Origin: Planctomycetaceae bacterium
GTDB lineage: Bacteria > Planctomycetota > Phycisphaerae > SM23-33
Length of the DNA: 64,000 bases
Direction: 5' to 3'
Assembly: GCA_039680605.1 (NCBI GenBank)
Contig: JBDKTA010000025.1
Coordinates: forward strand, 1-64,000
Made by a program: the position numbers and the translations under genes. Of this stretch, positions 1,653-43,242 are shown piece by piece (position 1 is the first letter of the stretch; each line of letters starts with the position of its first letter). The notes beneath the pieces are model-generated. The model had not been told where the DNA came from. It saw only the letters and a list, made by a program, of their open reading frames with translations, and did not search any database.

Positions 1653-4520
1653 ATGACGGCGGCATCGATATCCGCGGGCCAAATGGCCCTTGTCAAGACG
1701 GACCGGTTCTCGCTGCAGTTTTCGGCCGACGGCAGGCCGGCATCGCTCAAGACTGCCGATGGCAAAGAACTGCTGAACGTGGCCGACCCGGGTGCGGGGT
1801 TTGCCGCGTGCGGGGCCGGGGGGATGGTCATCCCGCTCAACCGCGTGCGCGTCGAGGGGCAGACGCTCATTGCTTCCAGCGACAACGCCACCCAGCAGGT
1901 CCATCTTGCCGTCAAGAGCGGCACGGGGCACATCGGGCTGCAGATCGTGCGGCTGATCGGGTTTGCCACCACCGGCGACCTGGCGCTGACGCTGGAGATG
2001 AAGTTCGTCGACGATTCCGTGCGGGCGCTGCCGTACGATCCGCTGACGCGCGTGACGAGCGAAGGCAAGACGCTCAAGGTCTCATGGCCGCACCTGTGGC
2101 AGCGGACCATCGGCGACGCGCCCGGGGGATTCTCGATCTACCTCTGCACCAGCGACGCCGGCGAGGACGACACGCTCCTGCACATCTGGGCCGACCAACC
2201 GCTGCCGCACCCGGCCGTTGAAGGCGCGTGGACCTACGATCGCGCCAAGCAATGGCTGGCCGCATGGCAGAAGCGGTTCGGCGACCGCACGCCCTGGCCG
2301 CAGTTCGCGGTCTTCTACCTCGAGCCGACCAAGCCCCAGGACCTCTACGACGGCGCCAAGTACGCCAAGGCCGCCGGCGTCAGCGCGGTCTACCTCATGC
2401 CCTGGAGCTGGCGGGGCGAGTACTGGCCCGACCACAAAACCACCGCCGGCATCAATACCGACATCTTCCCCGCCGGCGAGGCCGACCTGGAGGAATACTC
2501 CAACCACCTCGCCGCGATGGGCCTGGGCCTCGAGCTGCACTACGTCAGCGGCGGGATCGGCTTTCACAATCCCAGGTACGTCGGCACAAAGCCCGACCGG
2601 CGCCTGGCAAGCTGGGGAGGCGGCAAGCTGGCCGCGGCGGTCTCGGCAAGAGATCGCACGCTGAAGTTCCGCCCGGCCGCCGGCGTCGAGGCGCCCTTCG
2701 TGCTGTCCGACAAGGTCAACTGGGGCGCCTTCGACTACCGCCCCCCCGCCCTGCCGCACTGGATGGGGTGCAACATCGTGCGCATCGAGGACGAACTGGT
2801 GCAGGTCGGCTCGTTCGAGGATACGGATAAAGAAGTCTGGACGCTCAAAGACTGCCGCCGCGGGTTCGGCAGCACCACTGCCGCTGCCCACGGCGCCGGG
2901 GCGGATTCGGCCGGCCTGGTCGTCGCGTACGGGCAGAACCTCGTGCCCGAGAACAACTCGACGCTGCTGAGCGAGATCGCCGCGGACTACGCCGGCCTGC
3001 TCAATCGCTGCCGCATCACGCAGGCGATTCTCGACGGCATCGAGATCCACAACTTCTTCGGCGCCGGGCATGACGAGAAGTTCGCAGCCGAGGTCTACTC
3101 GCGGCTCGATCACCCCACCGTCTGCCACACCAGCAGCGGCCGCGCGCCGCGGGCGTGGCTGGAATACCGCTTCAATTCCACGCGGAAGCTGCAAGGCCCC
3201 TCGCGCGGCGGGCACGCGGACATCATCCTCGACCAGCCCTCGCGCCCGGCCAGCAGCATCCTCGACGCTCACCATCAGCTCAGCGCCGCAGCCGCACGCG
3301 GAACGCACGCCTTTGGCATCCGCTCCAGCGACCGCGGGCCGACGGTGGAAGCCCTCAAGACTCACGGCCGCACCGACGCGATTATTCAAGCAGTTAACGA
3401 CTGGCGAGCTGTCAGCTATCTGCTCACCGACGTGCAGCGCGAGAAGTTCACAGCCGCCCCATCGACATCGAATCATTTCGACCCCGGCTGGGCGCAGGGC
3501 GATCAGGTTTACGTGCCGCGCAGAACCGCCGGCGGGTGGAAGATCGTCCCGCTGAAAGTACTCACGCGCAAGAGCGGCGACGTGAAATGGTTCCACGGCC
3601 AGGAGCACGGCGCCGTCGGTCCGCGGCAGTACATAAAGCCTGGCGAAAAGCTTTCGCTGGAGAATCCGTTCAAGGCTCAGGCGGCCCAGTTCGTCATCCG
3701 CGTGCTGTACGCGCACGATTACGACAGCGACAAGAACCTCTCGCTGCAGCCGACGATTACGGAGATCACCAATCCCTCCGACACGCTGATTCGCTCCAAA
3801 GGCGCGGGCCTGGAACTGACCCTGGACAACCAGCGGGCGGTCGACCGCTGGGAGGTCAGCCAGTTGCCCGCGTTCCATCGGCCGGTGGACATGCTGCACC
3901 GCCGCGCGATCGGCATGTATGTCACCGGCGACGCCGGCGGGGCGACGCTGCTCCTGCACGCCCTGCCCACCGGCGGGCACGGGCGCGACTGGGTCGTCAA
4001 GCTCGACTTCAAAGGCCGCCGCTACGTCGAGAGCCCCAGCGGCGAGGCCGCCTGGGCCAACGCCGATTGGGGTTGGCGGTACGCCTGCGCCAAGACGTTC
4101 GACTACGGCCGGGCACACGACTTCCTGTTGGGCTACGGCCACGTGCCGCCGCTGACCAAAGCCTCGGCGCTCGTTGAGGGAATTAAGGCCCTGGCCGAGA
4201 TTCCCGCGATGCTGGAGAACCCCGTCATCCACACCGGCGCGGGCACGCTGACCATCAAGGGCCGCATCGCCAGCGGGCAGTATCTCGAATATACCGGCGC
4301 AGCGACGGCCGCCCTCTTCGACGCCAACTGGAACAAACTGGCCGAGCTGCCCGTCGAGGCCAGGCAATACGTGATGCCCTCCGGCGTCTCGGACGTCTGG
4401 GTCGCCTCTGCCGCAAAGACTCCCCAGCCCTGGCTGGAGGTGCAGTTCATGGCCGAGGGCGCAGCCATCCTCGTACCGGACAAGAGCAAGCTCTCGTCGC
4501 CTCGCGTCGTCAGACGCTGA
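1653..4520 (+). CDS. large glycoside-hydrolase-like protein, predicted barrel core
   Basis: This is a 955-residue protein. The region around residues 215-340 alternates strands and helices in the style of a TIM-barrel glycosidase (AVFYLEPTKP, then YLMPWSWRGEYW, then LELHYVSGG). Around residues 450-530 there is a possible catalytic segment (ILDGIEIHNFFGAG). The C-terminal third looks beta-rich and may bind carbohydrate. I chose ATG 1653 because GGAG lies eight bases upstream, the same arrangement as at the next gene. No clear signal peptide is seen. The family is not recognised with certainty; the role is inferred from fold hints and from the isomerase and GH51-like neighbours. Confidence 0.6.
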   Translation: MTAASISAGQMALVKTDRFSLQFSADGRPASLKTADGKELLNVADPGAGFAACGAGGMVIPLNRVRVEGQTLIASSDNATQQVHLAVKSGTGHIGLQIVRLIGFATTGDLALTLEMKFVDDSVRALPYDPLTRVTSEGKTLKVSWPHLWQRTIGDAPGGFSIYLCTSDAGEDDTLLHIWADQPLPHPAVEGAWTYDRAKQWLAAWQKRFGDRTPWPQFAVFYLEPTKPQDLYDGAKYAKAAGVSAVYLMPWSWRGEYWPDHKTTAGINTDIFPAGEADLEEYSNHLAAMGLGLELHYVSGGIGFHNPRYVGTKPDRRLASWGGGKLAAAVSARDRTLKFRPAAGVEAPFVLSDKVNWGAFDYRPPALPHWMGCNIVRIEDELVQVGSFEDTDKEVWTLKDCRRGFGSTTAAAHGAGADSAGLVVAYGQNLVPENNSTLLSEIAADYAGLLNRCRITQAILDGIEIHNFFGAGHDEKFAAEVYSRLDHPTVCHTSSGRAPRAWLEYRFNSTRKLQGPSRGGHADIILDQPSRPASSILDAHHQLSAAAARGTHAFGIRSSDRGPTVEALKTHGRTDAIIQAVNDWRAVSYLLTDVQREKFTAAPSTSNHFDPGWAQGDQVYVPRRTAGGWKIVPLKVLTRKSGDVKWFHGQEHGAVGPRQYIKPGEKLSLENPFKAQAAQFVIRVLYAHDYDSDKNLSLQPTITEITNPSDTLIRSKGAGLELTLDNQRAVDRWEVSQLPAFHRPVDMLHRRAIGMYVTGDAGGATLLLHALPTGGHGRDWVVKLDFKGRRYVESPSGEAAWANADWGWRYACAKTFDYGRAHDFLLGYGHVPPLTKASALVEGIKALAEIPAMLENPVIHTGAGTLTIKGRIASGQYLEYTGAATAALFDANWNKLAELPVEARQYVMPSGVSDVWVASAAKTPQPWLEVQFMAEGAAILVPDKSKLSSPRVVRR

Positions 4521-20087: not shown

Positions 20088-20443
20088 GCCTGCGCGCCTC
20101 CGACGTCTTCCGCACCACCAGGGCCAGACAGAAGCCCGAGCGCGAGGTACAGCGGGCGATCCTGGGCTATCTCCGCTCCATCGGGGCACTGGTGGCCGTC
20201 ACAGACGCCGGGGCGGCATATCGCGCCGGCTCATGGGGTGCTGACACAGTGCCGGCCGGATGGCCGGACATCACGGGTCTGCTTCCCGACGGCCGCTTCA
20301 TTGGCGTCGAGTGCAAAGCCCCAGGCGGCCGCCAGTCGCCGGTGCAGAAGTTCATGGAGCAGGAGATCGAGCACCGCTGCGGGCTCTACGTGCTGGCCTG
20401 CAGTATCGACGACGTGCGGGAGGCAATCGAACGCGATGGATGA
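20084..20443 (+). CDS. VRR-NUC domain nuclease
   Basis: A 119-residue stand-alone VRR-NUC protein. The catalytic signature is AGWPDITGLLPDGRFIGVECKA (PD...E-x-K, about residues 58-80), with GRQSPVQKFMEQEI after it. Phage members process branched DNA or resolve replication/recombination intermediates. It is coupled at both ends, by an ATGA overlap upstream and an 8-base overlap with the primase-helicase. Confidence 0.88.
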   Translation: MSLRASDVFRTTRARQKPEREVQRAILGYLRSIGALVAVTDAGAAYRAGSWGADTVPAGWPDITGLLPDGRFIGVECKAPGGRQSPVQKFMEQEIEHRCGLYVLACSIDDVREAIERDG

Positions 20444-22655
20444 TCCCGTGCAGGAAATCCTGGAGCGTCTGGACGGGGCCAAGCAGGTCGGGCCAGACCA
20501 GTGGCAGGCTCGCTGCCCCGCGCATGAGGATGATCATCCCAGCCTGCGCGTTGGCCGGGGCGCCGACGGGCGAGTGCTGCTCAATTGCCGCGCCGGCTGC
20601 GCGACGATGGAAATCTGCAAAGCGCTGGGCCTATCCGCCAGCGCTCTCTTTCCCCCTGGCCAGAAGAAATGCTCTGCCGGCACCACAATCGTCGCCACGT
20701 ATGATTACCGCGACGCACACGGAAATCTGCTCTTCCAGAGCGTGCGGTTTGAGCCTAAGAAGTTCCGCCAGCGACGGCCTGACGGCAATGGGGGCTGGCT
20801 TTGGGAACTGGGCGATACGCCGCGGGTGCTCTATCGCCTGGTCGAACTCCTGGCCGCCGATCCGGCCCAGTGGGTGTTCATCGTCGAGGGCGAGAAGGAT
20901 GCGGACAATCTCGCCGCGGTGGGCCTGGTGGCCACTACCAATCCACAGGGAGCCTGTAAGTGGGGCAAGCTCTCCGACGACAGCGCGCTGCACGGCCGCC
21001 GCGTGGCGATTCTGCCTGACAGAGATGCGCCCGGTCGCAAGCACGCCCAGGACGTCGCCCAGCGCCTCAGGGGCAAGGCGGCACAGGTCAAGGTGCTCGA
21101 ACTGCCTGGCGACGGCAAAGATGCCTCTGACTGGCTGGCTGCCGGCGGGACGGCGGCAGAACTGCTGGCGCTGGTCGAGGCGGCGCCCGCTTACGAACAG
21201 CCCGTCGAGCCTGAAATCGCCGCCGCTACTGCCCCCGATGAGCCCATGGTCAAACTGGGCGAGCATGATCCGGCCACAGGTCGGCTCGTGTTGTCGCCCC
21301 GCCGCACGCTGCCCACCGCCGACGCGTTCATCAACGCCTTCCACAGCCACCCTGAGGGCCGGACCATTCATGGCCACGGCGGGGTGTTCATGGTCTGGCG
21401 GGATAATCGGTTCATAGAGGCCGAAGACCAGGCGGTGCGCAAGCAGCTCCAGTCCTGGCTGCACGAGGCGCTGCGATATGTGTTCGACAAGAAAACGAAC
21501 CAGATGGAACTGGTGGACTTCGAGTCCAATCCCACCACGATCAATGCCGCACTGGAATCGCTGCGAGTCCGGGCGCATCTGCCGGCCTCCATCGTTCCGC
21601 CGGCGTGGCTGGACGAAAATCCCCAGCGCCCGCCGGCGACGGAGATTCTGCCGTGCAGGTCATACAACCTGCATATCCCCTCAGAGACGGTACTGCCGCC
21701 GACGCCGGCGTTGTTCACCACCAACGCCCTGGACTTCGACTTCGACCGCGCCGCCCCCTGGCCGGAAGCATGGCTGGATTTCCTGGCGCAGCTTTGGGGT
21801 GACGATCAGCAGTCCATCGCGTTGCTCCAGGAGTGGTTTGGGTACTGCCTGACCGCCGACACCAGTCAGCAGAAGATGCTGCTGCTGGTTGGCCCCAAGC
21901 GATCGGGCAAGGGCACCATCGGGCGCATCCTGAGCCGCCTGATCGGCCCAGCCAACGTCTCCGGCCCGACCACCAGCGGCCTGGCCGGGCCGTTTGGCCT
22001 GCAGCCTCTGGTCGGCAAGAGCCTGGCCATCGTCTCGGACGCCCGCTTCACCGGCAATGACGTGGGGACGGTGATCGAGCGGCTCTTGTGCATCAGCGGG
22101 GAAGACAACCTCACCATCGAACGAAAGTTCCTGCCGGCGCTGACCATGAAGCTGCCGACTCGGTTTGTATTCCTGACCAACGAACTGCCGCGGATTAACG
22201 ACGCCAGCGGCGCCCTGGCCAACCGATTCCTGCTTCTGACGCTTCGCCAGAGCTTCTACGGCCATGAAGACACGCACTTGACGAGCAAGCTCATGTCGGA
22301 GCTTCCTGGGATCCTGCTGTGGGCTCTGCAGGGATGGGTGCATCTGCATGATCGGGGATATTTCGAACTGCCCCAAAGTTCCAGGGACCTGCTGCAGGAC
22401 GTGGAGGAACTGTCCAGTCCTGTCGGGGCGTTCGTCCGCGACTGCTGCACGGTCGCCGTCGGCAATCGCTCGCGTGTGGAGGATCTTTATGCAGCCTGGA
22501 AGGGCTGGTGTCAGAAAGACGGCCGTAACACAACCTCAACTCGCCAGACGTTCGGTCGCGATCTTCTGGCGGCCGTGCCGGGGCTGACAACTCGGAGAAA
22601 TCAGCATACCGGGCGTTTCTACGAGGGTATCTCGCTGAGCGAGGGGGTCGCATGA
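20436..22655 (+). CDS. phage primase-helicase (CHC2 zinc finger, TOPRIM, SF3 helicase)
   Basis: A 739-residue replication protein. A zinc-binding CHC2-like finger uses C27, H30, C51 and C55 (CPAHEDDHPSL; NCRAGC). The TOPRIM catalytic segment is FIVEGEKDAD (about 148-157) with a DRD at 195-197. The D5/P4-like helicase has Walker A GPKRSGKGT near residue 488 and arginine-finger region LANRFLLL. It would lay primers and unwind DNA at the phage origin. ATG 20436 is chosen because upstream sequence belongs to the VRR-NUC gene. An iteron-like array begins right at its 3' end. Confidence 0.9.
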   Translation: MDDPVQEILERLDGAKQVGPDQWQARCPAHEDDHPSLRVGRGADGRVLLNCRAGCATMEICKALGLSASALFPPGQKKCSAGTTIVATYDYRDAHGNLLFQSVRFEPKKFRQRRPDGNGGWLWELGDTPRVLYRLVELLAADPAQWVFIVEGEKDADNLAAVGLVATTNPQGACKWGKLSDDSALHGRRVAILPDRDAPGRKHAQDVAQRLRGKAAQVKVLELPGDGKDASDWLAAGGTAAELLALVEAAPAYEQPVEPEIAAATAPDEPMVKLGEHDPATGRLVLSPRRTLPTADAFINAFHSHPEGRTIHGHGGVFMVWRDNRFIEAEDQAVRKQLQSWLHEALRYVFDKKTNQMELVDFESNPTTINAALESLRVRAHLPASIVPPAWLDENPQRPPATEILPCRSYNLHIPSETVLPPTPALFTTNALDFDFDRAAPWPEAWLDFLAQLWGDDQQSIALLQEWFGYCLTADTSQQKMLLLVGPKRSGKGTIGRILSRLIGPANVSGPTTSGLAGPFGLQPLVGKSLAIVSDARFTGNDVGTVIERLLCISGEDNLTIERKFLPALTMKLPTRFVFLTNELPRINDASGALANRFLLLTLRQSFYGHEDTHLTSKLMSELPGILLWALQGWVHLHDRGYFELPQSSRDLLQDVEELSSPVGAFVRDCCTVAVGNRSRVEDLYAAWKGWCQKDGRNTTSTRQTFGRDLLAAVPGLTTRRNQHTGRFYEGISLSEGVA

Positions 22656-22860
22656 GCAAAAAGTACCGCACAGTACCGGACAGGTACCGCACAGTACCGC
22701 AGTCACTGCTGGTGAGATACGCCAGACGCAATAAAGACTTACAGCTCAAGTACCGCACAGTACCGCACATTTCCCTATATACCGCGTGTGTGCGCGCGCA
22801 CGCGCGTACGCGCACGCGCGCGCGATACGCGCCAGGAGACAATAGGAGATACCGCGGTAC
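22652..22860. other. candidate replication origin: iterons plus Z-DNA tract
   Basis: Three copies of GTACCGCACAGTACCG lie at 22663-22678, 22684-22699 and 22750-22765. Each holds two GTACCG hexamers 10 bases apart. An AT-rich patch (22767-22781) and a perfect 42-nt alternating pyrimidine-purine tract (22783-22824) follow, then a TACCGCGGTA palindrome near 22850. An 84-codon frame crosses the region (22652-22906), but its repeated YRTVP and Arg-rich peptide looks like a by-product of the repeats. Confidence 0.6.
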
Positions 22861-22898
22861 TTCGCGGCACCGGCCGGCACTGGTCAAAGGGGCCGGTC

Positions 22899-23228
22899 AT
22901 GTATGAGTTCTCGACGGCCCGCAAGCCCAAGGCTGCGCCGCCGCCCTCGGCGCCTCCTGTCGTGCCCGTTTGGCCGGTACCCCAGCCCGTGACGCTGCTG
23001 CGGTACTGCCGCTGCACGGACTGCCAGAAGTTCTTCAGCTCCGCCGGCCAGTACTACTGCGACGACTATATCGGCGGCACGAAAGTGGTATGGGGCACCG
23101 GTGAGAGGTTCTGCGATCCGCCGCCCGATTCCTGGCACTACTGTGCGGGCTATGACGGCCCGCTGATCAGCAAGGAGGTCATGGCGTGGCCCAAGGGCCA
23201 AGAGAGGAGCAGCAATGCAGGCACGTGA
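22899..23228 (+). CDS. hypothetical cysteine-rich protein
   Basis: A 109-residue protein with a Pro/Ala-rich N-terminus and many cysteines (RYCRCTDCQKFF; YYCDDY; RFCDPP; HYCAGY), probably a metal-binding fold. ATG 22899 follows AAAGGGG. The function is unknown. Position after the primase suggests an early phage accessory gene. Confidence 0.6.
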   Translation: MYEFSTARKPKAAPPPSAPPVVPVWPVPQPVTLLRYCRCTDCQKFFSSAGQYYCDDYIGGTKVVWGTGERFCDPPPDSWHYCAGYDGPLISKEVMAWPKGQERSSNAGT

Positions 23229-24133: not shown

Positions 24134-25054
24134 TCAGTGCTGCCACGGTCCCGGAGCTTGCCAGCGTTGAGGCAACCGCTGGTTGTCAGCGAGATGAGCC
24201 AAAACTGGACCGAGAAAGGCAGCAACGCCGGCAACAACTTCAACGAAGTTATCCGGGACGCCTGTGGGAGCGGATCGACGCACAAAGGCTGCCCACTGGG
24301 CCTGCTTTTCTTCCCGGTGCGCAAACTCGTTACTGAACGCAGTGGGATTGGCCGGAATGGGCGTGTTGCGCCGCTCGAACGTGCTGACGATAGCCTGAGC
24401 CAGCGTGGAGCCCTCGAATGCGAAGCCCTGTGCGAGATGCCAGATATCGGCGAAGTCCTTCATGCGACTGTTGAGGACATCGCGAGCGACCATGGCCTGG
24501 AGCTTCTCGGCAATCGAGGATTCAGGGCGATAGCCCATCATGGACACGCCAGGAAAATCCAGCAGGCCGGGCAGGTCCAATCGCTGAGGCTTTGGGATCG
24601 GCCGGTCGCTAAAGCCAATATCGATCTGGATGGATATCCGGGCGTTGCCCATCCGGCCCGTCAGCCTGACGCGCATGCCGTTGTACTCGGCATCCTCGGT
24701 GATCGGCACAGCCGTGACGCTCTGGGCATCGAACACGAGCCCGTCAATCGGCACGTCCTGCGCGGCGACTGCCTGGAACACCTTCACCAGGCTTTCCGCT
24801 TCGTTGCTTGTATGCCCAAGCAGGTCGATGTCCATGGTTGGCCGATACATCCGGCCGCTGCCGGTCCACGCCAAAAGGGCCAGTGCCCCCTTGAGGGTGA
24901 ACTGGCCGGCGAAGGGAGATGAGCTCAGGCGGTAGAGAAAACGCTCCATCGCGAAGCGTTGCTGCAGGTCGTTGTAGGGGCGGCCCTTTTCCTTTGCGAT
25001 CTTGAGCAGACGGTCGTGGACCGACCGCGCCATGTTGCGGACAGTATCGCTCAC
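24134..25054 (-). CDS. abiEii: AbiEii-type nucleotidyltransferase toxin
   Basis: A 306-residue type IV toxin of the AbiEii/AbiGii family, a DNA-polymerase-beta-like nucleotidyltransferase. The family signature is KGALALLAW followed by RPTMDIDLLG (about residues 55-80). FxDxxD-like downstream residues occur in RMKDFADIWHLA. Known AbiEii proteins arrest growth by modifying tRNA or related targets with NTPs. Its start overlaps the antitoxin stop by four bases. The locus runs against the surrounding phage operons, typical of prophage-borne anti-phage cargo. Confidence 0.9.
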   Translation of the reverse strand: MSDTVRNMARSVHDRLLKIAKEKGRPYNDLQQRFAMERFLYRLSSSPFAGQFTLKGALALLAWTGSGRMYRPTMDIDLLGHTSNEAESLVKVFQAVAAQDVPIDGLVFDAQSVTAVPITEDAEYNGMRVRLTGRMGNARISIQIDIGFSDRPIPKPQRLDLPGLLDFPGVSMMGYRPESSIAEKLQAMVARDVLNSRMKDFADIWHLAQGFAFEGSTLAQAIVSTFERRNTPIPANPTAFSNEFAHREEKQAQWAAFVRRSAPTGVPDNFVEVVAGVAAFLGPVLAHLADNQRLPQRWQAPGPWQH

Positions 25055-25662
25055 AGCATTGCCTCCAGGTACGGCGACATGATGTTCTGCACTCGACAGA
25101 TTCGGGCGAACTCCAGGAACTCGGCGACGGAAGTGCCCTTGCGATCGCGGCAGAACCTCAGGGCTTCCATCGCCACATCTTTGCCGATCTTCTTGCGGTA
25201 CTTGAAACAGTCGGCCACGGTTTTGGCGGGGCTGTAGATGCGGACCCTCACACCGTCGATGTCGTGCGTCTCGACCCCCGCCGAGTAGGCCTGTCCGCTG
25301 AACCAGTATGGCTGGATGGGCGGATACTCGATCTTGGGGCTGTGCGTGTGGGCCGGAAGAGCAAGGTCCACAGCGCGGGGAATCTGCGTAGTGATGTCAT
25401 GGAATGACAGGGCCGAGACCAGGCAGATCACGCCTTTGGGCGCGGCTTTGGCGACCACGGCAAGGTCTGGCTCGGCCATCTGGTCCAGTTCAGCCAGCCG
25501 GTAGCAGCCTCGGCGCAGCATGGTGACTTCGCCGGCGTCGCGCATGGCGTAAAGCACTCGCGGCTGGATGCCTTCGCGAATAACCTCTGCGGTGCGGAGC
25601 ATGCCGCCATGATGGCGGAAGATCTCCTTGGCCTTATCGATCTGTCTGGGCGTCGGTCTCAT
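25051..25662 (-). CDS. abiEi: AbiEi-type antitoxin and autorepressor
   Basis: A 203-residue antitoxin. The N-terminal winged-helix DNA-binding domain (GGMLRTAEVIREGIQPRVLYAMRDAGEVTMLRRGCYRL) is followed by the AbiEi C-terminal domain (VCLVSALSFHDIT; YSPAKTVADCFKYRKKIG). Family members both neutralise AbiEii and repress their own promoter by binding inverted repeats; a perfect palindrome lies 18 bases upstream of the start codon. It is the first gene of the toxin-antitoxin operon. Confidence 0.88.
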   Translation of the reverse strand: MRPTPRQIDKAKEIFRHHGGMLRTAEVIREGIQPRVLYAMRDAGEVTMLRRGCYRLAELDQMAEPDLAVVAKAAPKGVICLVSALSFHDITTQIPRAVDLALPAHTHSPKIEYPPIQPYWFSGQAYSAGVETHDIDGVRVRIYSPAKTVADCFKYRKKIGKDVAMEALRFCRDRKGTSVAEFLEFARICRVQNIMSPYLEAML

Positions 25663-26105: not shown

Positions 26106-27062
26106 ATGATCGCATCAGAATCTACCACGCACGTTGAGCAGTACCAAGACATATTCAAGCGGTTGGCCGGGGCCATCAATGAGCACCTGGAGCTTAAGCA
26201 GGACCTGGACGAATCGAAGGTCCGCGGCATCGTCGATGAGGCTGTCGCGGCTGCGCGGTTGCCGCGGCCGGTGGAAGTCCACATGCCCGACGGCACGGTC
26301 AACACGCTGTCGGAGCGGACGCATCGGCAGTTTGAGCAGGTGCTGTCCCTGATCGGTGAAGGGCACAGCAACATCATGCTCGTCGGCCCGGCGGGTACGG
26401 GCAAGACCACGCTGGTCAAACACGCCGCCAAGGCCCTTGGCCGCAGTTTCGCATTCATCAGTCTCTCGGCCGGCGTGACTGAAACGCACATCTTCGGCCG
26501 GATGCTGCCTCAGTCAGACGGCACCTGGGCGTATGTCGAATCGCCCTTCATCCGCATCTACCGCAACGGCGGTGTATTCCTCTTCGATGAAGTCGATGCC
26601 GCAGACGGCAACGTCATGGTCTCCATCAATGCGGCCCTTGCCAACGGGGTGCTGTGCAACCCGGTCAATGGCGAGGTGATCGAGCGGCATGCTGACTGCG
26701 TCATTGTAGCCGCTGCCAACACGTATGGCCGCGGCGGCGACATGGTCTACGTCGGCCGCAACGCCTTGGATGGTGCCACGCTTGACCGGTTCGTCCTGTC
26801 CAAAATCAATGTCGGCTACGACACCGATCTGGAAGCGGATATGGCCACTGCGGTTGGCTCGAAGGGTCAGGCTCTGGTTGACTGGGTGAATCGCCTGCGT
26901 GACCGCATTGCGGATAACCGCCTCCGCCGCATCGCCTCCACTCGCCTGGTCGAACAGGGCGTCAAGGCACTGTCGGCCGGAAGAACGCTGGAGGATGTGA
27001 AGAGCCGGTTCTTCCAGGACTGGTCAGCGGATGAAAAGTCTAAAGTCGGCGAGGAGGCGTAA
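26106..27062 (+). CDS. MoxR/CbbQ-like AAA+ ATPase
   Basis: A 318-residue AAA+ protein. Walker A is LVGPAGTGKTT (about residues 93-103), Walker B GVFLFDEVDAAD (about 156-167), and sensor 1 CVIVAAANTYGRGG. The N-terminal 60 residues are helical. MoxR-type ATPases usually remodel or insert metals into partners together with a VWA-domain protein; a candidate partner is the next gene. It heads an operon of phage genes under the promoter at 25842. Confidence 0.82.
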   Translation: MIASESTTHVEQYQDIFKRLAGAINEHLELKQDLDESKVRGIVDEAVAAARLPRPVEVHMPDGTVNTLSERTHRQFEQVLSLIGEGHSNIMLVGPAGTGKTTLVKHAAKALGRSFAFISLSAGVTETHIFGRMLPQSDGTWAYVESPFIRIYRNGGVFLFDEVDAADGNVMVSINAALANGVLCNPVNGEVIERHADCVIVAAANTYGRGGDMVYVGRNALDGATLDRFVLSKINVGYDTDLEADMATAVGSKGQALVDWVNRLRDRIADNRLRRIASTRLVEQGVKALSAGRTLEDVKSRFFQDWSADEKSKVGEEA

Positions 27063-27063
27063 C

Positions 27064-28146
27064 ATGAACCGGGAATTACTTAACAATCTGCGACAGCGTT
27101 ACGCCGGCGGTGAAAAGGTCACGGCCCTGGCCAAAGAGGCTGGGATCCCCTGGCAGCGGCTCTGGGGCCTGCTCAAGAGCGGCACCCAGCAACAATCGCG
27201 GCAGGAATCCCATCAGGAACCCCGCCAGCAGCGTCGTCAACGCCGCCTCAAGAATCGCCTGCACCGCAGCGAAGGGCAGGTCACTTCGCAGAATCCCGTT
27301 CACCGGGACAGCGACGGCATCGACCGCATCACGTTCGATTCAGTCGGCGAGGCTGTGATCGATGCTCTGGCCGATTACGCCCAGAACGATGGCAACCGCA
27401 CCTTCATCGCAGGCCGCATTGCCGAACATACCACCGGCCACGATGCATGGGCCAATTACTACACCCGCGACAAGCTGCTGGGCTCGATTGCCAATCCGCC
27501 GCGGCACTTGCTGGATGCGGTGGAAGACATGCGACGGCAACTGGTGGATGAGATTAGTCCGCCCGTCTGCACGCGCCGGCGTGTTCGCCGCAATCAGGAA
27601 TGGGGCGACGAACTGGAGGCCGAGTCGGTTCTGGTTCGTAGCCTGACGCCCTGGGAGCGCATGACTCGGGAAACCCAGCCCCGCCGCTCTGTCACCATCG
27701 GCGTAAACCTCACGGTCAACGCCGGTCAGCGGTCAGAACATCTTCTGTGGCGTGGCGCCGCGGCGGCGGCTTTGGCGGACATCCTTACCCAGCGCGGCGT
27801 CAATGTCGAAATCGTCGCTTTCTGGACGATCAGCCGCATGAGCAGTGAAAGCCGGATGGTGGTCAGCCGCTATGTGGTCAAGCGTGCGGACATGCCCATG
27901 GATCTGGGCAGTGTGTCGGTGGCCCTGGCGGAGATCGCCTACTCGCGTCTGGTGGCCCTGTACGGGCTGGCGCGGCACGTTCCCGGTGTCCTCGATGACG
28001 GCATGGGCTGCTGTGAGAAGCTGCCCGCGCAGGACCGCAGCGGCATCGATTATCTGGCCGAAGCGGACATCACCAGCCGCAGCGCCGCTGAATCCTGGCT
28101 CAAACAGTCTGCCACGGTGCAGGAAAGCGGGGTGCTCCATGTTTAA
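27064..28146 (+). CDS. DUF7192-like protein, possible VWA partner of the MoxR ATPase
   Basis: A 360-residue protein. Residues 1-38 (LLNNLRQRYAGGEKVTALAKEAGIPWQRLWGLL) form a helix-turn-helix-like module that is clearly repeated at the start of the clamp-loader-like protein at 29378. A Gln/Arg-rich linker follows. The main domain has an alternating strand/helix pattern (RRSVTIGVNLTVNAGQRSEH, GAAAAALADILTQRGVNVEIVAFW) like VWA folds. The start codon is one base after the MoxR-like stop. Function is inferred from pairing only. Confidence 0.55.
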   Translation: MNRELLNNLRQRYAGGEKVTALAKEAGIPWQRLWGLLKSGTQQQSRQESHQEPRQQRRQRRLKNRLHRSEGQVTSQNPVHRDSDGIDRITFDSVGEAVIDALADYAQNDGNRTFIAGRIAEHTTGHDAWANYYTRDKLLGSIANPPRHLLDAVEDMRRQLVDEISPPVCTRRRVRRNQEWGDELEAESVLVRSLTPWERMTRETQPRRSVTIGVNLTVNAGQRSEHLLWRGAAAAALADILTQRGVNVEIVAFWTISRMSSESRMVVSRYVVKRADMPMDLGSVSVALAEIAYSRLVALYGLARHVPGVLDDGMGCCEKLPAQDRSGIDYLAEADITSRSAAESWLKQSATVQESGVLHV

Positions 28147-32473: not shown

Positions 32474-33784
32474 ATGTTCATCGGGTCCATCAATCGGTAC
32501 ATGCGGGCCGTGCTGGAGACGGCGGCGCAGCAGTGGCGCGGGCTGCCAGTATACGTCGCGTGCAGCGGCAACTTCACCGTCGAGCGCATCCTCGCGCGCT
32601 GCGGCGTCGGGGCGATCCACTCTAACGATGTGTCGATCTACTCCTGCGCCCTGGGCTGGCACCTGGCCGGCAGTGAGCAGGCATACAAGGTCAAGAATCA
32701 GGATTTCGCCTGGCTGGGAGAGTATCTGGCGCCGGGGCCGGCGACCATCGCCACGCTGCTGCTAACGGGGGAGATGCTCAAGGTCGGCAAGGATAACGCG
32801 TATGCCCAGCGGATGCGGGAGCAGTACCGGCGCCGCTGGCCGGAGCTTCATGCCACGACCGTCGAGCGGGTGACGAAGGCCCTGGCCGGGCTGCCCCTGG
32901 CGTCGTACTTCGCCGGCGACTGCCGGGAGTTTCTGGCAGCCGCAGATCGCGATGCAGTTTGCATCAGCTTTCCGCCCACGTACAAGGGCGGGTACGAGCG
33001 GCTGTTCAAAAAGCTCGACAGCGTCTTCGAGTGGTCCAAGCCCAGCTACCAGGTCTTCAGCCCCGAAGATTTCGAGCAGTTCAGCCAGAGCGTCCGCAGC
33101 TTCAAGCACTGGATGATCTCCAGCGACTCTGAGCAGCCCGCCCTGGCCGGCCAGCACGTCGCCACGGTCCAGACTTCCCTGCGTAGTAAGCCGGTGTTCA
33201 TGTACTGCGATTCCGCTCCTGCGCGCTACGCGGCCGCCCGTCAGCAGATCGGCCAGAACCCCTGGGCACCGCGGACCGACGAAGTGGTCGAGCCTATCCA
33301 GGTGGTGCAGATCGATGCCAAGACCATGAACGCCATCCGCAGCCTGTACCTCTCCCAGAGCATCATCGTCTGTGACGCCCCGCGCAACTATGCGGTGCTG
33401 TCGGACGGCAGGCTGCTGGGGGCATTCTCGTTTGCTCTGCCGCGGGGTCCGCTGCCGTGCGATCTGTATCTGCTGTCGGATTTTGCCGTGCGGCCCACGC
33501 CGCACAAGCGGCTGAGCAAGCTGATCCTGGCCTGTGCCGTCAGCAGCGAGGTCCGGGCCGATCTGGAGCAGTGGCTCTGCGGCCGCATCCGCACCATCGG
33601 CACCACGGCATTTACGCAACGGGCGGTCTCCATGAAATACCGTGGACTGTTCGAGGTCCATAATCGCAGCGAAGGGAAGGTCAATTACCTGGGCGCCGCC
33701 GGAAGGTGGTCCTTGCAGGAGGGTTTTGCATGGTGGAAAGCCAATCACAGCCAGTCGATAAGCACAGCGCCAGCTCCGCAGTAA
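32474..33784 (+). CDS. methyltransferase-fold/GNAT fusion, Mom-like DNA modification or antirestriction protein
   Basis: A 436-residue protein. The N-terminal half has a methyltransferase-like layout: YVACSGNFTVERILARCG as motif I, IHSNDVS, and ISFPPTYKGGYERL where DPPY-type catalytic motifs occur. It resembles proteins labelled antirestriction adenine methyltransferases. The C-terminal part (GRLLGAFSFALPRG, LYLLSDFAVRPTPHKRLSKLIL, FEVHNRSEGK) looks like a GNAT/Mom domain, which in phage Mu alters adenines to block restriction. A ParB-like gene overlaps its end by 55 bases. The chemistry is inferred. Confidence 0.62.
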   Translation: MFIGSINRYMRAVLETAAQQWRGLPVYVACSGNFTVERILARCGVGAIHSNDVSIYSCALGWHLAGSEQAYKVKNQDFAWLGEYLAPGPATIATLLLTGEMLKVGKDNAYAQRMREQYRRRWPELHATTVERVTKALAGLPLASYFAGDCREFLAAADRDAVCISFPPTYKGGYERLFKKLDSVFEWSKPSYQVFSPEDFEQFSQSVRSFKHWMISSDSEQPALAGQHVATVQTSLRSKPVFMYCDSAPARYAAARQQIGQNPWAPRTDEVVEPIQVVQIDAKTMNAIRSLYLSQSIIVCDAPRNYAVLSDGRLLGAFSFALPRGPLPCDLYLLSDFAVRPTPHKRLSKLILACAVSSEVRADLEQWLCGRIRTIGTTAFTQRAVSMKYRGLFEVHNRSEGKVNYLGAAGRWSLQEGFAWWKANHSQSISTAPAPQ

Positions 33785-34566
33785 ACGAGAAGCTGTCCGG
33801 CTCCAGCCTGCGCGTGGCGATGGTGCCCATCGCCGCCTGCGATCTGCTGGAAAAGAACGCCCGCTTCATGCGGGTCGAGCAGTACAAGCGGCTGGTGGAG
33901 AACATCCGCCGCGACGGCTGTTTGACCAGCGTGCCCTTCGCGATCCGCCGCGGGGAGCGCTACGCCATCCTCTCGGGCAACCACCGCGTCAAGGCCGCCC
34001 ACGAAGCCGGGCTGGCGGAGATCATGGTGCTCTACACGGATCGGGAACTCACGCGCGCCCAGCAAGTGGCCATTCAGCTTTCGCACAACGCCATCGCCGG
34101 CCAGGATGATCTGGCAATCCTGCGTGAGCTGTACGACGAGATTAACGATGTGGCGCTGATGGAATACTCGGGCCTCGACGACGTGGTCCTGGACCGGCTG
34201 AACCCGCCCAGCCTGGACCCGCTGTCAGAGAAGGGCCTGGAGTACCGGATCGTCTCGATTGCATTCCTGCCCGAGGAGGTCGAGCGAGCCGAGAGACTCT
34301 TCGCCAAGGTGCTGGAGCAAGCCACCGGCGACGTCACCTGGATCAACCGCTATGCAGATTATGACCGGATGCTGGATGCCCTCACCGCCGCCAAGGAACA
34401 GGCTGGGATCAAGAACACCGCGACGGCATTCGGGCTGCTGCTAGATCTGGCGGACAAGCACCTGCAGGACATTCCGTTCGGCACAGGAGAAGGTCAAGCC
34501 TTAGATGAAGGTGTCGTAGGCGCAGTTGACGTCGATCTCATGCTCCCCTCCAAGACTGTCGCGTAA
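33730..34566 (+). CDS. ParB-like nuclease-domain protein
   Basis: A 278-residue protein. The N-terminal ParB/sulfiredoxin-like domain is clear: VEQYKRLVENIRRDGCLTSVPFAIRR and YAILSGNHRVKAAHEAG (about residues 55-105). A helical region follows (LTRAQQVAIQLSHNAIAGQDD). ParB-like CTPase proteins near phage DNA-modification genes are thought to act in modification targeting or packaging. GGAGG precedes ATG 33730. Its 3' end converges on, and overlaps, a minus-strand cargo gene. Confidence 0.78.
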   Translation: MVESQSQPVDKHSASSAVNEKLSGSSLRVAMVPIAACDLLEKNARFMRVEQYKRLVENIRRDGCLTSVPFAIRRGERYAILSGNHRVKAAHEAGLAEIMVLYTDRELTRAQQVAIQLSHNAIAGQDDLAILRELYDEINDVALMEYSGLDDVVLDRLNPPSLDPLSEKGLEYRIVSIAFLPEEVERAERLFAKVLEQATGDVTWINRYADYDRMLDALTAAKEQAGIKNTATAFGLLLDLADKHLQDIPFGTGEGQALDEGVVGAVDVDLMLPSKTVA

Positions 34567-41170: not shown

Positions 41171-41224
41171 CCAAGAGAACCAAGGCCGTGTGGGGCCACA
41201 CACTCACGCGGCCTTTTCTCTTGG
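41171..41224 (+). terminator. long hairpin between portal and capsid genes
   Basis: CCAAGAGAA/TTCTCTTGG (outer) and AAGGCCG/CGGCCTT (inner) form a 54-base inverted repeat. The inner stem is followed by TTTTCTC, so partial termination or attenuation before the highly expressed capsid gene is possible. It may instead be an RNA-processing or stability element. Confidence 0.55.
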
Positions 41225-41256
41225 TCGCCTGGGCAGGCTGCCAGAAAGAGTCAAGG

Positions 41257-43242
41257 ATGACTGAACCCAAGAATATTTCTCTGACGGCGGCACTGGAGAT
41301 CGATCTTTCCGCGCAGGCGTCTACCCCCGACGCGCCGGCCCTGCCGCGATTCAACATGGTCGCCTACACCGGCGGCACGATGCGCATTTCCGGATGGCGG
41401 TATCCCCTTGTGGTGGATCTGGCCGGCCTGGCGATTCCGCGCCAAAACGCCCCGATCCGCGAATCCCATGGCACCCGAGTCGGCCATGCCGAAGCGATCC
41501 GCGTCGAGAACGGCCAGCTCATGGCCAGCGGCATCATTTCCTGCACGGGCCAGACCGCCCGCGAGGTGGTCGCCGACGCCAAAAATGGCTTCCCCTGGCA
41601 GGCGTCCATTGGGGCGTCGGTCGAGCAGTTCGAGTTCGTCAAAGAGAACCAAACCATCTCGGTCAACGGCCGGGACTTTTCCGGGCCCATCAACGTCGTG
41701 CGTAAGGCGACGCTGGGCGAGATCAGCTTTGTGGACCTCGGCGCCGACGGCAACACGTCCGCCAGTGTCGCCGCGGCTAAGGAGAAGATCATGGACGAAG
41801 TTACGAGCACCAGCACTGCGACTCCCACGGGCGAACAGGGCAAGGAAGCCCAGCCCTCTACTGTCCAGGCGGCTGTCGGCACGGACGCCGGCGCGCCTGG
41901 CATTGTCGCGGCGGATCCCGTCGCCGACATCCGAGCCAAGGCCGTCGTCGAGCAGGAGCGGATCATCGCTATCCGCGATGTCTGCGGCGAGAAGTTCCCC
42001 GAGATTGCCGCCAAGGCCATCAAGGAGGGTTGGGACGTGACCAAGACGGAACTGGAAGTGCTCCGTGCGCAGCGCCCCAAGGCCCCGGCCGCCCATATCC
42101 CCGACAGCACCATGTCCGGCAGCGTGCTGGAAGCGGCCTGCATGCTCACTGGCGGAATGAAGGGTGATGCCATGGTCAGCAGCTATGGCGAGAAGGCCGT
42201 GGAAGCTGCCGAAAAACGATTCCATCGCGGCATCGGCCTGCAGGAGCTTCTGCTGGAGGCGGCCTGGGCCAATGGCTACGACGGCCGCAACTTCCGCGAC
42301 AGCCGGGCCGTGCTGCGGTTCGCCTTTGGCCTGGGCATCCAAGCTCAGGGCTATAGCACCATCGATATCAGCGGCATCCTCAGTAACGTCGCCAACAAGT
42401 TCCTGCTGGAGGGGTTCTTCAGCGTCGAGCGCACCTGGCGGAACATCTGCGCCATCCGCAACGTCAGCGACTTCAAGACCATCACCAGTTACCGCCTGAT
42501 CGGCAACGATCAGTACCAGGTCGTGGCCCCCGGCGGCGAGCTCATGCACGGCACCCTGGGCAACGAGTCCTACAGCAACAAAGCCGACACCTACGGCCTG
42601 ATGCTGTCCGTCGATCGGCGCGACATCATCAATGATGACCTGGGCGCCATCACCACGCTGCCCCGCAAGTTCGGCCGCGGCAGCGGGCTGAAGATCAATG
42701 ATATCTTCTGGACCATCTTCCTGGCCAATAGCGCCTTCTTCACCGCCGGCAACAAGAACTACGTCACCGGCGCCGACACGGTGCTGGGCATCGACGGCCT
42801 GAGCAAGGTCGAGAAGGCCTTCGCTGACCAGACCGACAGCGACGGCAAGCCCATCGGCATCCAGCCGGCGATCATGCTGGTGCCCACGGCGCTGAGCGCC
42901 ATGGCGACCATGCTGTACAAGAGCCTGGAGATCCGCGACACCACCGCCAGCACGAAGTACCCGGTGGCCAATCCCCACCAGAACAAGTTCCGCGCCGAAG
43001 TCAGCCGCTACCTGTCCAACGCCAGCTACAGCGGCAACAGCGAGAAGGCCTGGTATCTGCTGGCCGATCCGCAGGACCTGCCGGTGATCGAGGTGGCGTT
43101 CCTCAACGGCCAGGAATCGCCCACCATCGAGACGGCCGATGCGGACTTCAACGTCCTGGGCATCCAGATGCGCGGGTATCACGATTTTGGCTGTGCCCTG
43201 CAGGATCCCCGCGGCGGCGCCAAGAGCAAGGGCGAGGCTTAA
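41257..43242 (+). CDS. fused prohead protease and major capsid protein
   Basis: A 661-residue protein. Residues 1-170 carry a prohead-protease-like domain (YPLVVDLAGLAIPRQNAPIRESHGTR, then GFPWQASIGA) with histidine and serine candidates. A spacer of about 80 Ala/Glu-rich residues could be scaffold. From about residue 290 the capsid-like part begins (GVDVERTWRNICAIRNVS-like region, then SRYLSNASYSGN, AWYLLADP). Self-cleavage during maturation is expected. The start follows AAGAG and the hairpin at 41171. Confidence 0.82.
   Translation: MTEPKNISLTAALEIDLSAQASTPDAPALPRFNMVAYTGGTMRISGWRYPLVVDLAGLAIPRQNAPIRESHGTRVGHAEAIRVENGQLMASGIISCTGQTAREVVADAKNGFPWQASIGASVEQFEFVKENQTISVNGRDFSGPINVVRKATLGEISFVDLGADGNTSASVAAAKEKIMDEVTSTSTATPTGEQGKEAQPSTVQAAVGTDAGAPGIVAADPVADIRAKAVVEQERIIAIRDVCGEKFPEIAAKAIKEGWDVTKTELEVLRAQRPKAPAAHIPDSTMSGSVLEAACMLTGGMKGDAMVSSYGEKAVEAAEKRFHRGIGLQELLLEAAWANGYDGRNFRDSRAVLRFAFGLGIQAQGYSTIDISGILSNVANKFLLEGFFSVERTWRNICAIRNVSDFKTITSYRLIGNDQYQVVAPGGELMHGTLGNESYSNKADTYGLMLSVDRRDIINDDLGAITTLPRKFGRGSGLKINDIFWTIFLANSAFFTAGNKNYVTGADTVLGIDGLSKVEKAFADQTDSDGKPIGIQPAIMLVPTALSAMATMLYKSLEIRDTTASTKYPVANPHQNKFRAEVSRYLSNASYSGNSEKAWYLLADPQDLPVIEVAFLNGQESPTIETADADFNVLGIQMRGYHDFGCALQDPRGGAKSKGEA

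Follow-up and report, generated by a model that had tools for sequence, protein, structure and literature searches.

The C-terminal domains of SaPI Rep and of SCCmec Cch2 bind repeats that lie just downstream of the genes encoding these proteins (PMC7581432), and PICI origins always comprise an AT-rich region flanked by two sets of iterons, an organisation described as unlike that of any other known bacterial replicon (PMC6092414). We analysed a 64-kb stretch of planctomycete DNA (the window) that carries, downstream of a primase-helicase gene, what is very probably a replication origin of this SaPI/P4 type, read by its own initiator and belonging to an integrated tailed phage. As in SaPI and PICI origins, an array of iterons follows immediately 3' of the gene for the initiator-helicase and two iteron sets flank a spacer (PMC7581432, PMC6092414). 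Unlike in SaPI and PICI elements, the window array resides in a full tailed prophage and its spacer is a GC-rich run of alternating purines and pyrimidines instead of an AT-rich region. In the SCCmec case, short direct repeats follow the gene for the Primase_Cterm helicase Cch2 and are bound by its C-terminal domain in isolation, but these are three 5-nt repeats on one side and a two-armed layout is not described (PMC7581432). In phage P4 (NC_001609), crr adjoins the 3' end of the alpha gene, and the short type 1 repeats occur in either orientation; in contrast to the window, P4 also has a second, distant ori with type 1 repeats, whereas no further GTACCG cluster (150-bp windows with three GTACCG) occurs beyond 22663-23001 in the 64 kb searched. 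A likeness may extend to the crenarchaeal plasmid pRN1, whose replicon reportedly depends on 166 bp that follow the replication operon (PMC4234260).

The prophage in the window starts at a tRNA-Arg gene and an integrase gene, and its replication and nuclease genes encode a PD-(D/E)XK nuclease, an AAA protein, a VRR-type nuclease, the primase-helicase, a clamp-loader-like protein and a ParB-like protein. Since terminase, portal, head-protease and tape measure genes are present in the same prophage, it is not a PICI satellite. A search for the att site was negative: within the window, no 14-bp stretch of the tRNA-integrase region recurs exactly further downstream. Just downstream of the origin and of a DUF1580 block (DUF1580 is typical of planctomycetes) lies a gene for an AbiEii nucleotidyltransferase of a type IV toxin-antitoxin system (24134-25662, minus strand), adjoined by a 203-aa gene that likely encodes its AbiEi partner. 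Further into the prophage, a MoxR-like AAA_5 ATPase is followed by a DUF7192 protein (26106-28146), and the models for a major head protein and a head maturation protease fall on one 684-aa frame (41188-43242), which suggests a fusion.

The protein features on which the comparison with SaPI and P4 rests are as follows.

20436-22655, plus strand: gene for the 739-aa primase-helicase, with a Toprim-type primase half and a DUF5906/Pox_D5 helicase half; the proposed initiator
22446-22637, plus strand: predicted C-terminal winged-helix domain, residues 407-470 of the 475-aa C-terminal half (AlphaFold)
22575-22628, plus strand: wing segment PGLTTRRNQHTGRFYEGI, whose covariation with the iteron sequence is the strongest in the protein (sliding-window Mantel scan)

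The primase-helicase is a member of the same family as P4 alpha (TIGR01613, DUF5906, Pox_D5): it scores as a P4-family phage/plasmid primase by TIGR01613 (156.6 bits versus a cut-off of 108.7) and matches DUF5906 (1.8e-14) and Pox_D5 (PF03288, 23.9 bits versus a cut-off of 21.4) in Pfam. The AlphaFold model of the C-terminal half has a mean pLDDT of 87, and its best match among solved structures is the SaPI5 primase-helicase (7OLA, E 5e-18), the fold that the helicase half is thus predicted to share. At the C-terminus the model places a strand (407-416), two helices (417-430 and 439-449) and two wing strands (454-458 and 462-470), with pLDDT values mostly of 79-89 and one ten-residue block at 66. 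Both this order of elements and the profile score identify it as the Pox_D5-type C-terminal winged helix of P4-family primases.

The 243 bp from the primase-helicase stop (22655) to the start of the next gene (22899) are filled by the two arms and the tract, in the order of six forward iterons, a 42-bp alternating tract and three inverted iterons.

22663-22699, plus strand: left arm, first block, four GTACCG iterons (22663, 22673, 22684 and 22694)
22733-22742, plus strand: AAAGACTTAC box, recognised by eye; counterpart of the CAAGGACTTACG-like box in long-arm relatives
22750-22765, plus strand: left arm, second block, two GTACCG iterons (22750 and 22760)
22770-22781, plus strand: short AT-rich step TTTCCCTATATA bordering the tract
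22783-22824, no strand: strictly alternating purine-pyrimidine tract of 42 bp, Z-DNA-prone; the scored segment reaches 22832
22855-22880, minus strand: right arm, inverted CGGTAC (22855), CGGCAC (22865) and CGGCAC (22875)
22899-23228, plus strand: next gene, for a cysteine-rich small protein (MYEFSTARKP...), which bounds the origin region

An earlier, sequence-only reading had reported three exact copies of GTACCGCACAGTACCG directly after the primase-helicase gene, each with two hexamers 10 bp apart and the first two copies 21 bp apart, and this description is confirmed: the copies occupy 22663-22678, 22684-22699 and 22750-22765 and no other position in the window, the GTACCG starts within the blocks are spaced by 10, 11, 10 and 10, and the first iteron lies 8 bp 3' of the stop. 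With up to three mismatches allowed, GTACCGCACAGTACCG occurs at 6 sites versus 0.28 expected (none of 100 shuffles had as many), and the six GTACCG hexamers in 22656-22899 were matched by none of 20000 dinucleotide shuffles. On the other hand, that reading had captured only the left half of the array and missed the inverted right arm, whose iterons (CGGYAC) are exactly 10 bp apart. The right arm is degenerate (CGGCAC in two of its three copies) and overlaps the palindrome TACCGCGGTA at 22850-22859. The AT-rich patch said to adjoin the array holds for the ~12 bp of TTTCCCTATATA, but the main neighbour is the GC-rich alternating run. Counted from the stop, with signs giving the strand, the window pattern reads +7 +17 +28 +38, +94 +104, tract 127-177, -198 -208.

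Relatives were drawn from planctomycete genomes and viral contigs, giving 145 distinct loci that encode a protein related to the C-terminal half, and 27 loci from another class of the phylum served as an extra test set. Alignment of the C-terminal half worked for this purpose, whereas a whole-protein viral search gave loci that were mostly Toprim-half matches with other helicases and was uninformative. When near-duplicate flanks were merged, 28 independent close relatives (at least 56% identity) remained. Scoring as an array any 7-mer repeated in at least four copies within 300 nt after the primase-helicase stop, we found one in 22 of these 28; in control windows placed within the gene or farther 3' the counts were 0, 1, 1 and 2 of 28. 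Among relatives of 40-56% identity the proportion was 12/31, and among those under 40% it was 26/57 (controls 0-3), a clear array being absent in about half of the distant relatives. As the repeats differ between loci (GTACCG, ACTGTC, ACCGTC, TGGCACG, CCTGCG, CAAGCGCG and others occur at the same site), it is the layout that is conserved and not the sequence.

In this common layout, forward iterons with a spacing of ~10 bp stand to the left of the tract and inverted iterons to its right. The block pattern of the window recurs in outline, mostly with other iterons, in L010, L159, L157, L163, L154, L251, L007, L238 and L240, and the two-block spacing of the left arm is common to L010, L159, L154, L251 and others. 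To quantify the symmetry, the left arm of each of 23 independent tract loci was compared with its own inverted right arm (mean score 16.7) and with the right arms of other loci (8.1); none of 20000 permutations reached the observed value, and the direct orientation scored 9.7. Exact iterons in the tract loci are likewise oriented, with 57 on the plus and 11 on the minus strand in left arms versus 9 and 29 in right arms. A CAAGGACTTACG-like box precedes the second forward iteron pair at about +80 to +95 in L010, L154, L157, L159, L163 and L239, and in L002 a MYEF-start gene likewise lies 3' of the origin. An exact scan for the 16-mer yielded 39 genome and 3 viral matches; as ~120 are expected from base counts, most of them must be chance, and only L027 and L038 encode a relative of the window primase-helicase (the DNA examined around another match, L052, contained none). 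Arthrobacter phage Cassia has no array after its primase-helicase. The window's own genome carries a second primase-helicase that is 25% identical (L206, contig C71) and followed after its stop by an array of its own, GTGTCA x9; since this array differs, a single host harbours several elements whose iterons are not the same.

Could the repeats simply be coding sequence? One frame runs across the whole origin.

22652-22906, plus strand: 84-codon frame whose start overlaps the primase-helicase stop (ATGA) and which ends just inside the start of the next gene

If this frame made a conserved repetitive protein, the iterons would be its codons, and in 41 of 49 close relatives the primase-helicase stop indeed shares bases with an ATG or GTG. 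Moreover, in 210 nt the close relatives have 12 stops in the ATGA frame versus 50 and 54 in the other frames, and the ATGA frame is stop-free in 36 of 48 loci versus ~10 expected from shuffles. However, substitutions between close pairs are spread evenly over the codon positions (490/490/482) and indels mostly break the frame (389 that are not multiples of three versus 114), both counts coming from pairs that overlap and in part align poorly. Because the iteron changes completely between relatives, the encoded peptide changes too, and because alternating DNA cannot hold stop codons, part of the stop depletion is explained, though not the favoured frame, which translational coupling across the origin might account for. 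By these comparisons the frame, unusually stop-poor as it is, is not conserved as a protein at the amino-acid level, and a coding role for the repeats, which the earlier reading had weighed, appears extremely improbable. A tblastn match of the 84-aa frame to L250 was discarded, as it fell in another frame and was of low complexity.

Sorting the loci by iteron also sorts the wing of the winged helix:

wing RRRG.G(D/N): iteron ACCGTCGCG (ACCGTC type)
wing RRRG.G(M/L/Q): iteron ACTGTCGCG (ACTGTC type)
wing TRLG: iteron ACCTGCGCG
wing TRCG: iteron CAAGCGCG
wing SRQG: iteron CCAACGCG
wing (T/S)QPR: iteron TGGCACGCG
wing RDG: iteron TGGTCCGCG
wing R(N/H)....GR: iteron GTACCGC; GTACCG-type repeat GTACCGCACA

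Most iterons of this group end in CGC(G), which suggests that an iteron is composed of a constant and a variable half. In partial Mantel tests given the helicase core, the wing correlated with the iteron (r 0.44, p 0.0002), as did the helix part (r 0.31, p 0.0002), while the core given the wing reached r 0.16; these p-values are optimistic even with near-duplicates removed, since the loci are related. A Mantel scan with 12-residue windows over the 475 residues peaked at 450-461 (r 0.44) and 456-467 (r 0.32) against a median of -0.02, and the top eight windows all fell inside residues 408-467, within the last 68 residues. In these alignments, then, no part of the protein follows iteron identity as closely as the wing does, and the recognition helix correlates with the iteron too, so that the wing is probably not the sole reader.

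The correspondence extends to a single wing residue and a single base: D or N goes with ACCGTC (11/11) and M, L or Q with ACTGTC (16/16). All 27 scorable loci fit this rule, five of them from the different class of the phylum (L285 with Q and ACTGTC; L286, L288 and L289 with D, and L291 with N, all ACCGTC), and the Fisher p of 8e-8 is too optimistic given the relatedness of the loci. The five were not among the data from which the rule was drawn, and a second out-of-sample case is provided by L027 and L038, which were found by the DNA 16-mer alone: their primase-helicases are 60-62% identical to that of the window and their wings, RRNQHTGRFYEG and RRNQSYGRFYEG, are window-like (RRNQ..GRFYEG). 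The GTACCG wing also recurs in the viral contig L251 despite a different recognition helix. Conversely, prediction from the nearest wing failed or was weak in the divergent new loci L287, L290, L294, L295 and L303, and a search of viral contigs for the DNA patterns of wing residues brought up nothing new. Taken as a whole, the comparison points to a few helicase residues that would read particular DNA letters.

On the basis of this covariation and the out-of-sample prediction, the C-terminal domain of the window protein may bind iterons in the manner of SaPI Rep, and the primase-helicase itself is the likely binder. The sequence-only reading had proposed an initiator-binding array, to be sought in related prophages, with either the DUF1580 protein or the primase-helicase as its ligand. 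The array was found in those relatives, and its positional conservation and covariation with the winged helix support the proposal as a whole; of the two ligands, covariation with the wing makes the primase-helicase the likelier and speaks against DUF1580. That the locus is an origin whose iterons are recognised by another protein is very improbable: a DUF1580 gene does lie ~0.6 kb downstream and DnaA serves many bacterial origins, but the iteron varies together with the wing of the primase-helicase, the out-of-sample match included, and host DnaA would leave different iterons within one phylum unexplained. We also consider it improbable, if somewhat less so, that the array functions as an operator or in partition, with the primase-helicase or the ParB-like protein (33706-34566) bound there to regulate the operon or direct segregation. 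Plasmid iterons often double as copy-number control and the prophage does encode a ParB-like protein; yet its gene is 11 kb away and the repeats track the wing of the primase-helicase. Moreover, an origin accounts better than an operator for a conserved tract enclosed by inverted arms, an arrangement that in PICIs is the origin (PMC6092414).

Between the arms, the window tract is the highest-scoring alternating tract in the 64 kb (score 49 versus a shuffle mean of 12.5, equalled by none of 100 shuffles). Of the 28 independent close relatives, 19 had an alternating score of at least 20 after the stop, none of the four control windows reached this in any locus (0/28 each, 0/112 in all), and in 19/28 the tract score exceeded 95 of 100 shuffles. 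The GC content of the tracts averages 75% versus 63% for the loci, with mild AT dips at the two borders (50% and 46% GC). In some more distant loci the eye finds other simple sequences between the arms, each a single case: L169 has (CT)n, L164 a run of C and L276 alternating TA-rich DNA. A CAAT/ATTG symmetry suggested by eye at the tract borders held only in part (CAAT on the right in 14/23, ATTG on the left in 5/23) and was dropped.

The tract is of the right sequence type to form Z-DNA. We tentatively suggest, as a possibility well short of even, that in high-GC phages with P4-type initiators such a tract helps the origin to open by leaving the B form: turned into Z-DNA or a different non-B structure, it would take up negative supercoiling and replace the AT-rich melting element, with opening from the tract borders and with the iterons read by the residue-to-base code of the winged helix. 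A literature search found no paper joining Z-DNA, a replication origin and iterons. It is quite conceivable, though again not favoured, that the tract is incidental and outside the opening mechanism, arising by repeat expansion or serving as a transcription hairpin. Simple repeats expand by slippage, tract sequence and length (15-94 bp) vary widely, and long tracts are absent from relatives below ~55% identity and from some close ones (L214, L215 and L246). Against an incidental origin stand the position between the arms, the excess over the control windows of the same loci, and recurrence in another class (score at least 15 in 7/27 loci of the test set) and, less pronounced, in a phage of Salinibacter.

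The latter, the cultured phage M8CR30-2 (L278), encodes a 28% identical primase-helicase followed by a two-armed array at ~4290-4410, with two direct copies of TAACACAG, a C/A/G-rich and partly alternating tract, and two inverted copies of CTGTGTTA. It differs from the window in belonging to another phylum, in its iteron and in the distance of the array from the gene (~0.55 kb), and no origin feature is annotated at the array in the stretch examined.

For the reading that we prefer, an origin read by the primase-helicase, a mechanism can be envisaged in which the C-terminal winged helix binds GTACCGC(A/G) iterons, the wing mainly reading the variable half. Copies of the initiator would line up on one face of the DNA in the left arm and in the opposite orientation in the right arm, and the inverted arms would serve to load two helicase rings around the tract between them, at which the DNA might open; the linked primase half could then prime both forks. 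Beyond what SaPI and P4 origins have in common, the locus appears to add a GC-rich, Z-DNA-prone spacer and a residue-to-base specificity code. An origin layout that has been called peculiar to satellites thus occurs in full phages as well and is likely a general module of P4-type primase-helicases. The GC-rich alternating spacer raises the question whether a phage origin is able to open when it has no AT-rich element. If the residue-to-base code of the winged helix is true, initiator specificity would be predictable from sequence, and through the correspondence of wing and iteron so would the compatibility of co-resident elements, a prediction that is cheap to test.
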